A stretch of 64,000 bases of DNA from Pedococcus aerophilus. Lineage in GTDB: Bacteria > Actinomycetota > Actinomycetes > Actinomycetales > Dermatophilaceae. Below, piece after piece: positions 12,987 to 46,617 of this stretch. The notes beneath the pieces were generated by a model. It searched no databases, was not told the DNA's origin, and saw nothing but the letters and a program-made list of their open reading frames with translations. Numbering within the stretch: the first letter of the stretch is position 1; each line of letters begins with the position of its first letter. Both the position numbers and the translations under genes were made by a program. The DNA lies in the NCBI RefSeq assembly GCF_039532215.1, contig NZ_BAAARN010000003.1:450485-514484 (forward strand), given 5' to 3'.

Positions 12987-14366
12987 TCAGAAGTTCTGGG
13001 CCATGTTGGCGAACCGGGCGTAGTGACCCTGGAACGCCAGCACCATGTCCTTGGTCGGGCCGTTTCGGTGCTTGGCCACGATCACGTCGACCTCGCCCTC
13101 ACGGCCCTCGAGCTTGGGCTCGCGGTGCAGCAGGATGACCATGTCAGCGTCCTGCTCGATGGAGCCGGACTCACGCAGGTCGGACATCGCAGGCCGCTTG
13201 TCGGCACGCTGCTCCGAACCACGGTTCAGCTGCGAGATCGCGATGACCGGGACCTCGAGCTCCTTGGCCAGCAGCTTGAGCGCACGGGAGAACTCCGAGA
13301 CCTCCTGCTGGCGCGACTCGACCTTCTTGCCCGAGCTCATCAGCTGGAGGTAGTCGATGACGACGAGCTTGAGGTTGTGCTGCTGCTTGAGCCGACGGCA
13401 CTTGGCCCGGATCTCCATGAGCGACATGTTGGGCGAGTCGTCGATGAACAGTGGCGAGTCGGAGATCTGGCCCATGATCCGCGCAAGCTTCTTCCAGCCG
13501 GCATCGCCGATGGTGCCCTTGCGCAGGTCCTGCAGCTGGATCTGCGCCTCGGCGGACAGGCAACGCATGGTGATCTCGCTGCGGCTCATCTCCAGGGAGA
13601 AGACCGCCGTGGCCTGCTTGTGCTTGATGGCGGCACAGCGGGCGATGTCCAGGCCCATGGTCGACTTACCGACGGCGGGACGGGCGGCCAGGACGATCAT
13701 CTGTCCCGGGTGCAGTCCGTGGGTCAGCTCGTCGAGCTCGATGAACCCGGTCGGCACGCCGAGCATCTCGTTGGCGTCGCGACCGGCGGCGACCTCGATC
13801 TCGTTGAGGGTGTCCTCGAGGACGTCACCGAGGGCGACGTAGTCCTCGCCACCGCGCTTGTCGGCCACGGCGTAGACCTCGGCCTGGGCGGCGTTGACGA
13901 TGTCCTCGACGTCGCCGTTGCCCTGCTGGTAGCCGAGCTGGACGATGCGGGTGCCCGCCTCGACGAGCCGGCGCAGCACCGCGCGCTCGCTCACGATCTC
14001 GGCGTAGTAGCCGGCGTTGGCGGCAGTCGGGACGGCCTGGATCAGCGTGTGCAGGTAGGCCTGACCACCGATCCGCTGGAGGTCGCCGCGCTTGGTCAGC
14101 TCGTCGGAGACGGTGATCGCGTCGGCGGGCTCACCGCGGCCGTAGAGGTCGAGGATCGCGTCGTAGATCAGCTCGTGCGCGGGCCGGTAGAAGTCGGTGC
14201 CGCGCAGCCCCTCGACGCAGTCGGCGATCGCGTCCTTGGACAGGAGCATGCCGCCGAGGACCGACTGCTCGGCGTGCAGGTCCTGCGGGGGCACCCGGTC
14301 GTCGGACTGCGGAGGCCCGTCGCCGCCAGCACTGAAAGCGCTGGTGCTCAGCTCCGCAAGAGACAC
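12987..14366 (-). CDS. dnaB: Replicative DNA helicase
   Basis: DnaB is the hexameric helicase that unwinds DNA at the replication fork. The 459-residue product has the N-terminal primase-interacting domain (PPQDLHAEQSVLGGMLLS), Walker A (ARPAVGKST) and the RecA-like helicase core (FSLEMSRSEITMRCLSAEA, VVIDYLQLM). There is no intein insertion. The GTG at 14366 is preceded by AGGGAG with 8-nt spacing; the frame stays open far upstream, but this is antisense to an MFS gene and not real. Its upstream region carries several DnaA-box-like sites. Confidence 0.95.
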   Translation of the reverse strand: MSLAELSTSAFSAGGDGPPQSDDRVPPQDLHAEQSVLGGMLLSKDAIADCVEGLRGTDFYRPAHELIYDAILDLYGRGEPADAITVSDELTKRGDLQRIGGQAYLHTLIQAVPTAANAGYYAEIVSERAVLRRLVEAGTRIVQLGYQQGNGDVEDIVNAAQAEVYAVADKRGGEDYVALGDVLEDTLNEIEVAAGRDANEMLGVPTGFIELDELTHGLHPGQMIVLAARPAVGKSTMGLDIARCAAIKHKQATAVFSLEMSRSEITMRCLSAEAQIQLQDLRKGTIGDAGWKKLARIMGQISDSPLFIDDSPNMSLMEIRAKCRRLKQQHNLKLVVIDYLQLMSSGKKVESRQQEVSEFSRALKLLAKELEVPVIAISQLNRGSEQRADKRPAMSDLRESGSIEQDADMVILLHREPKLEGREGEVDVIVAKHRNGPTKDMVLAFQGHYARFANMAQNF

Positions 14367-14548
14367 TCTGCCAACTCCCTGGGACACGAACGAGAACGAA
14401 GAACACCGGTGTGATTCGAGTAGACCACGGCCCACCGACAGTGGACACCCACCCCGCCGGACGAAGCACCGGACAACCGCCCGGATAAGCCCCCGAACCA
14501 CGAATGCCTCACCGTAGGGCGGCGCCGGCCACCCGCCCAAACGCGCCC

Positions 14549-14732
14549 TGTGGACGGGGTGTGGACAAGGTGTGCGCAACTCCCGACCACCTTGTGCACA
14601 GTCGGGGGATAACCCTGTGGATTTCCGCGACGGAGCGTTTCGCCCACCCCGCTGACCTGCACCGATCTCGTCCACGGGGTGTGGACCGAAGAAAGTCTCG
14701 GGCGTGTCCGTGAGGTGTCGCCCCGTGCACAA
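14549..14732. promoter_or_regulatory. Cluster of DnaA-box-like sequences upstream of dnaB
   Basis: Within 184 bp of the 426-bp non-coding gap 14367-14792 there are a perfect actinobacterial DnaA box TTGTCCACA (minus strand, 14568-14560), TTGTGCACA at 14592-14600, TTATCCCCC (14612-14604), AATCCACAG (14623-14615), TCGTCCACG (14668-14676), a CGGTCCACA (14688-14680), and TTGTGCACG (14732-14724). dnaA, dnaN and the oriC layout are absent, so this is not called an origin. It may be a DnaA-titrating or DnaA-regulated promoter region. Confidence 0.6.
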
Positions 14733-14780
14733 CCTGTGACGAACTTTCGCACGGGCCTGTCCCACGCGCCATACCGGACG

Positions 14781-14786
14781 TAGCCT
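14781..14786 (+). promoter_or_regulatory. -10 box of a leaderless transcript
   Basis: TAGCCT ends 6 nt before the ATG at 14793, with no ribosome-binding site, which fits leaderless transcription of the DUF2277 gene. Confidence 0.5.
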
Positions 14787-14792
14787 GCGGGC

Positions 14793-15065
14793 ATGTGCCG
14801 AAACATCCGCCAGCTGCACAACTTCGAGCCCCCGGCGACCAGCGACGAGGTCCGCGCCGCCGCCCTCCAGTACGTCCGCAAGGTGAGCGGCAGCACCAAG
14901 CCCAGCCAGGCCAACCAGGCGGCGTTCGACGCGGCGGTCGAGGAGATCGCGCACGCGACGGCGCACCTGCTCGAGCACCTCACCACCACCGCACCGCCCA
15001 AGGACCGCGAGACCGAGGCCGTCAAGGCGCGCGCTCGCGCGCAGGCGAGGTATGGCGCCGCCTGA
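14793..15065 (+). CDS. DUF2277 family protein
   Basis: The 90-residue protein begins MCRNIRQLHNFEPPAT and continues with the helical AALQYVRKVSG segment, the diagnostic DUF2277 signature. The conserved Cys at residue 2 is unusual and may be exposed after Met removal. The function is not known. It is monocistronic, with a leaderless-type promoter and an unclear 3' end. Confidence 0.85.
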   Translation: MCRNIRQLHNFEPPATSDEVRAAALQYVRKVSGSTKPSQANQAAFDAAVEEIAHATAHLLEHLTTTAPPKDRETEAVKARARAQARYGAA

Positions 15066-46608: not shown

Positions 46609-46617
46609 TTGTCCACA
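46609..46617 (+). promoter_or_regulatory. DnaA box upstream of the ssb operon
   Basis: TTGTCCACA, a perfect actinobacterial DnaA box, lies about 29 bp upstream of the -10 of the rpsF-ssb operon. With the sites upstream of dnaB it suggests DnaA control of replication genes. Confidence 0.55.

Follow-up and report, generated by a model that had tools for sequence, protein, structure and literature searches.

Helically phased DnaA boxes in register with a candidate dnaB promoter are conserved across the class Actinomycetes

The region described here lies in a stretch of 64,000 nucleotides, called the window throughout (G000:C3:450485-514484), of a 4.02 Mb genome assembled in 10 contigs. On its minus strand the window carries dnaB, which encodes the replicative DNA helicase; by dnaB, the closest named relative is Pedococcus bigeumensis (94% identity, among the best 80 of 587 loci). 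A gene for a DUF2277 protein is divergent from dnaB, and between the two genes lie a row of sequences resembling the DnaA box and, nearer to dnaB, the elements of a possible promoter (Table 1). A search of the region against Rfam gave no match. In the dnaB leader, a stretch resembling AATCACACCGGTGT (14401-14432) is similar in two close relatives and shows no enrichment in the class-wide set described below. Elsewhere in the family, dnaB gives two or three matches in 20 of 59 genomes, mostly fragments of one long open frame with breaks near query residues 240 and 405-410; these breaks probably mark inteins.

Table 1. Features of the window discussed in the text (coordinates are those of the window)
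Feature	Position	Strand	Basis or remarks
dnaB, replicative DNA helicase	12987..14366	-	Pfam DnaB_C 6.7e-104, DnaB N-terminal domain 2.6e-35
dnaB start GTG	14366-14364	-	sequence reading; GTGTC common to the window and three relatives
possible dnaB ribosome-binding site AGGGAG	14380-14375	-	sequence reading
possible -10 TACGGT	14511..14516	-	18-bp spacer; 32 bp from box 8; TAnnnT peak in the class set
possible -35 TTGGGC	14535..14540	-	8 bp after box 8; from sequence, alignment and class-wide TTG[AC] peak
helically phased DnaA-box array, eight dnaB-strand boxes	14549..14732	-	steps 44, 64, 12, 11, 22, 11, 11 bp
box 8 CCGTCCACA, nearest promoter	14549..14557	-	2 mismatches
box 7 TTGTCCACA	14560..14568	-	perfect
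box 6 TTGCGCACA	14571..14579	-	2 mismatches
TTGTGCACA, overlapping box 5	14592-14600	+	1 mismatch
box 5 CTGTGCACA	14593..14601	-	2 mismatches; unchanged in three relatives
box 4 TTATCCCCC	14604..14612	-	2 mismatches to TTATCCACA
box 3 AAATCCACA	14616..14624	-	2 mismatches to TTATCCACA; unchanged in three aligned relatives
opposite-strand box TCGTCCACG	14668..14676	+	2 mismatches
box 2 CGGTCCACA	14680..14688	-	2 mismatches
box 1 TTGTGCACG	14724..14732	-	2 mismatches
DUF2277 protein gene, divergent from dnaB	14793..15065	+	Pfam DUF2277 4.8e-40
single perfect DnaA box	46609..46617	+	147 bp upstream of rpsF start; rpsF and ssb on the - strand

A sequence-only reading of this DNA had noted seven DnaA-box-like 9-mers, one of them perfect, in 184 bp upstream of dnaB, and neither dnaA nor dnaN in the window; all of these observations held. 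Allowing at most two mismatches to TTGTCCACA, we found seven distinct box-like places in 14549-14732 (at 14549, 14560, 14571, 14592/14593, where matches overlap on both strands, 14668, 14680 and 14724), and the perfect match is the minus-strand box at 14560-14568. The interval from dnaB to the DUF2277 gene (14390-14793) holds 9 matches, as compared with a mean of 1.25 in shuffled sequences, and none of 1000 dinucleotide shuffles reached 9. When the window was scanned in 20-bp steps, its richest 184-bp stretches were those at the array. If TTATCCACA is also allowed, two extra weak boxes appear on the dnaB strand (14604-14612 and 14616-14624) and the array becomes regular: its coherence is R = 0.964 at a period of 10.9 bp, a value that none of 5000 random placements equalled. 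The dnaB strand of the window thus has one perfect box and seven with two mismatches, so the affinity of seven of the eight could be low. Perfect matches to TTGTCCACA occur at 20 sites genome-wide versus 3 for the motif read backwards; sites with at most one mismatch to TTRTCCACA number 358 versus 321 for the motif read backwards, which is near chance, and single weak boxes therefore mean little. Aligned to three close relatives, the window shows several boxes that stand out from diverged flanks. The genome's single dnaA match and dnaN are on contig C1, where three perfect boxes adjoin dnaN, and the window is on contig C3; because dnaA and dnaN lie on another contig, the array is not oriC.

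To count boxes in other genomes, we scored 9-mers with at most one mismatch from TTGTCCACA or TTATCCACA within 500 bp upstream of dnaB. The class Actinomycetes was represented by 203 sequences, made up of 80 loci (the best 80 of 587), whose class was taken from their names and assumed for a few uncultured ones, and 123 further sequences (63 listed loci and 60 chosen regions). Given this make-up, streptomycetes, Microbacteriaceae and the window's own family weigh heavily; the bias was countered with a dereplicated set of 156 sequences and with a family-weighted test that used the 123 further sequences only. The mean across the class is 3.74 boxes, as against 0.087 per 500 bp for 100 permuted motifs in the same set. 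At least one box is present in 195 of the 203 sequences and at least two in 184, with fewer than two in the remaining 19. A search for boxes upstream of dnaB in relatives, proposed in the sequence-only reading, thus shows them to be conserved. The window's own family has a mean of 3.53 boxes, with at least two in 28 of 30 sequences, and other classes of the phylum have a mean of 0.69, with at least one box in 31 and at least two in 16 of 78 loci (80 less L219 and L223, which gave no tblastn match and were dropped). Across the 80 class loci, the bin from -500 to 0 contains 4.0 boxes and every other 500-bp bin contains between 0 and 0.28. Some dnaB upstream regions from outside the class (for example L180, L184, L192 and L196) have pairs of boxes 11-22 bp apart, and hence the array may predate the class.

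We also compared box number with the position of dnaB in hand-picked genomes that have dnaA and dnaB on one contig (31 in the list, boxes counted in 30). The distance from dnaB to dnaA is 23-71 kb in 26 of the 31. Four listed genomes, with dnaB 125, 155, 216 and 251 kb from dnaA, have kept 4, 6, 3 and 3 boxes, respectively, and over the 30 genomes we detected no significant trend of box number with distance (Spearman -0.31, p 0.098).

The boxes upstream of dnaB mostly share one orientation, with 454 in the class pointing toward dnaB and 135 pointing away. Distances between dnaB-facing boxes fall at 10-13, 20-24, 32-35, 42-47 and 53-58 bp, the gaps between these ranges being empty, and further out at 62-70 and 73-79 bp. 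For the 415 same-strand pairs no more than 100 bp apart in the 156 dereplicated sequences, the best period is 10.9 bp (R = 0.742), with 16 of the 415 pairs off phase; the maximum R among 500 jittered sets was 0.18. Weighting all families equally gave R = 0.776 over the 19 families with pairs (null maximum 0.34 in 200), same-strand pairs being absent from the other 10 of 29 families. The oriC arrays of Actinomycetes are made of the same boxes, with same-strand pairs phased by ~11 bp as at dnaB: in the oriC regions of 20 class genomes, 179 same-strand pairs gave R = 0.66, with 26 off phase, although 50 of the 120 boxes in this set come from three regions of one family, and two of the 20 regions (L298 and L305, the latter from the sister species) contained no box and may have missed oriC. 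Since phasing is found at oriC regions too, it seems to mark DnaA multimers generally and not activation.

A candidate -35 and -10 follow box 8 in the window, and from their position dnaB transcription would be expected to start near 14504. The candidate -35, TTGGGC, is a poor hexamer, and a plain, strict sigma-70 scan of the region returned nothing, the TTGGGC/TACGGT pair included. Evidence for these elements comes from their register with the boxes across the class. In 127 sequences, TAnnnT sites after the last box are concentrated at 30-32 bp (45 sites), 42-43 bp (27 sites) and 52-53 bp (10 sites), with 1.2 sites per position expected by chance, and TTG[AC] has its peak 7 bp beyond that box (20 versus 0.7 expected). 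Among 121 box-bearing sequences from 28 families, TAnnnT is in phase with the boxes in 74 and in anti-phase in 2, for equal numbers of positions; in-phase sites occur in 17 of the 28 families and in none of the sequences from the other 11. The in-phase bins were chosen once the TAnnnT peaks were known; repeating the test without bins or box extension gave R = 0.72 (149 sequences, 146 sites; highest of 2000 null values 0.33). As a control, same-strand TAnnnT sites upstream of the array, a place unlikely to hold a dnaB promoter, gave a weak R of 0.29 (43 sites). Clustering, class conservation, orientation bias, phasing and the TAnnnT register can all be read directly from the DNA.

A -10 in the divergent direction showed no register with the boxes (R = 0.13, 52 sites), and control of the DUF2277 gene as the main role of the array was set aside for want of an in-register -10 on that side. 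A palindrome, TCACACnnGTGTGA, lies near the dnaB start in close relatives and was considered as a second shared element. It was rejected for dnaB: with at most two mismatches it occurs in 7 of 156 sequences, and permuted palindromes occur in a mean of 3.4 and a maximum of 17.

DnaA boxes also lie near other genes of this genome. A second perfect box, at 46609 upstream of the rpsF-ssb operon, had been pointed out from the sequence and was confirmed. Within the family, 21 of 30 rpsF loci (L337-L366; 30 examined of 31 genomes with a match) have a box in the 300 bp before the gene, as compared with 2.7% for permuted motifs; these boxes are in either orientation and form no array. Perfect boxes lie closest together in this genome at C1:2261009-2261064, where three fall within 56 bp, ~39 kb from dnaN. 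On one side of these boxes crgA ends at a distance of ~480 bp; on the other is the 3' end of a rhomboid gene, with a gene for a cyclophilin after it. The whole box cluster 3' of crgA spans L082:2998-3090, equivalent to G000:C1:2260997-2261089. Among 30 class loci (L307-L336; 30 examined of 59 genomes with a match), the 300 bp after crgA contain at least one box in 25 and at least two in 22, where permuted motifs give two boxes in 0.13%; in these counts, as in those for rpsF, loci clipped by a contig end (L320 and L327 are shorter) may use a shifted gene end. The window's own genome (L311) is one of the five crgA loci without a box within 300 bp, its boxes starting ~480 bp out. Phasing like that at dnaB was not shown at the crgA loci, where 29 same-strand pairs have a best period of 9.8 (R 0.63) and R is 0.46 at 10.9. 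A palindrome like TCACACGCGTGTGA, which is unlike the DnaA box, was seen near the crgA box cluster (L308, L313, L324 and others); with at most three mismatches it is present in 18 of the 30 loci, two of them perfect, as a raw count.

We take the mycobacterial gene Rv0011c to be crgA. On that assumption, the crgA cluster is perhaps equivalent to the mycobacterial DnaA site located between Rv0010c and Rv0011c. That site was described as having no obvious correspondence in other species (PMC7738170); it would then have counterparts across much of the class.

DnaA has been linked to dnaB previously. The region upstream of M. tuberculosis dnaB is among the five top DnaA sites in vitro, DnaA occupies the region upstream of dnaB in M. 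smegmatis as measured by ChIP-seq, and the DnaA mutant I282T binds more weakly upstream of dnaB and under-expresses dnaB (PMC7738170). The mycobacterial site and that in the window involve the same gene, the same side of it and the same initiator. In the sections of the mycobacterial work that deal with this site it is described as a bound region (PMC7738170); head-to-tail phasing, the -10 register and spread across the class are added here. Caulobacter crescentus, from a different phylum, likewise has predicted DnaA boxes upstream of dnaB, and a review places this gene in the DnaA regulon (PMC8203912). A DnaA-bound region upstream of dnaB was therefore already known, and the new part is the helically phased, promoter-registered box architecture; we found no description of phased boxes at dnaB in the open-licence papers searched.

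We propose, with a probability of roughly 0.6, that this region is a DnaA-responsive dnaB promoter, at which a phased DnaA multimer next to the -35 would activate dnaB. DnaA would bind a row of mostly co-oriented boxes set whole helix turns apart, in steps of ~11 bp; with such spacing the DnaA molecules would lie on one face of the DNA, making an oriC-like cooperative multimer possible. A gap of 8 bp separates the box nearest the promoter from the -35 hexamer, a distance that would place DnaA beside RNA polymerase, activating dnaB and coupling the supply of helicase to active initiator. DnaA lined up along one side of the helix and stopping shortly before a -35 is a geometry suiting an activator. 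As for a DnaA-regulated promoter, the boxes are clustered beyond chance at a predicted promoter and are kept with the same gene in relatives. We infer from these patterns that, in this organism, DnaA binds the array, the promoter is transcribed and the effect is activation rather than repression.

The opposite sign of regulation, in which a DnaA multimer extends across the promoter or obstructs RNA polymerase in a feedback like that of dnaA autorepression, appears unlikely. The last box does adjoin the possible -35 hexamer, and DnaA can repress, with autoregulation at its own promoter in several bacteria (PMC8203912); however, the I282T mutant, with less binding, has less rather than more dnaB mRNA (PMC7738170), and TAnnnT lies at least 30 bp past the last box in most sequences that have one, so that the boxes seldom cover it. 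The sequence-only reading had offered a choice between DnaA-controlled expression of replication genes and a titration site. In the second case the array would titrate or inactivate DnaA to limit initiation, like datA or the Streptomyces and Bacillus clusters, with its nearness to dnaB incidental; in its favour, dnaB lies 23-71 kb from dnaA in most of the listed genomes, so that the cluster is replicated early. These clusters share with the dnaB array the grouping of DnaA boxes outside oriC. According to a review, the chromosomal clusters of S. coelicolor and B. subtilis hold initiation back (PMC5742627), whereas the dnaB array is tied to a promoter element. The array also has one perfect box as against three in the crgA/rhomboid cluster of the same genome. 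We consider titration improbable as the main role, given the promoter register on the dnaB side and the presence of the boxes upstream of dnaB even in the four listed genomes that have this gene 125-251 kb from dnaA; it may be a second effect alongside dnaB control. Of the two alternatives, we therefore favour DnaA-controlled dnaB expression, to which class conservation, the register on the dnaB side and the retention of boxes far from dnaA all point.

A second or former replication origin would account for phased same-strand boxes, which are also found at the oriC regions of class members, and an ordered DnaA-box array is indeed present. Yet dnaA, dnaN and the three perfect boxes near them sit elsewhere in the genome, no AT-rich unwinding element flanks the array, the GC content of 50-bp windows from 14350 to 14849 being 0.54-0.74, and the conserved partner of the array is a promoter element. 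The dnaB array thus differs from oriC in all three respects, and we rejected this very improbable reading on the location of dnaA and dnaN and on GC content. That weak 9-mers have come together by chance in intergenic DNA of high GC content might be argued from the single perfect box and from the near-chance frequency of one-mismatch boxes genome-wide; the shuffles, permuted motifs, phasing and promoter register speak against it and leave it a negligible likelihood, and conservation upstream of dnaB across the class rules it out.

A broader proposal, which we put forward tentatively and at slightly less than even odds, is that Actinomycetes have an ancient DnaA-sensing promoter whose oriC-like, single-face array is registered to dnaB and which, together with the crgA cluster and the rpsF-ssb box, would form a small conserved DnaA network. 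If a DnaA-responsive promoter is indeed present at dnaB, a DnaA multimer of the kind that opens oriC would also switch on the helicase that is loaded there, and the supply of helicase would be tied to the initiator through the fixed helical register. The register also yields a rule: half-turn insertions should break the promoter, and full-turn insertions should not. The phased array may serve as a sequence signature for finding other DnaA-controlled promoters, and it would give a wider setting to the mycobacterial DnaA peak upstream of dnaB.
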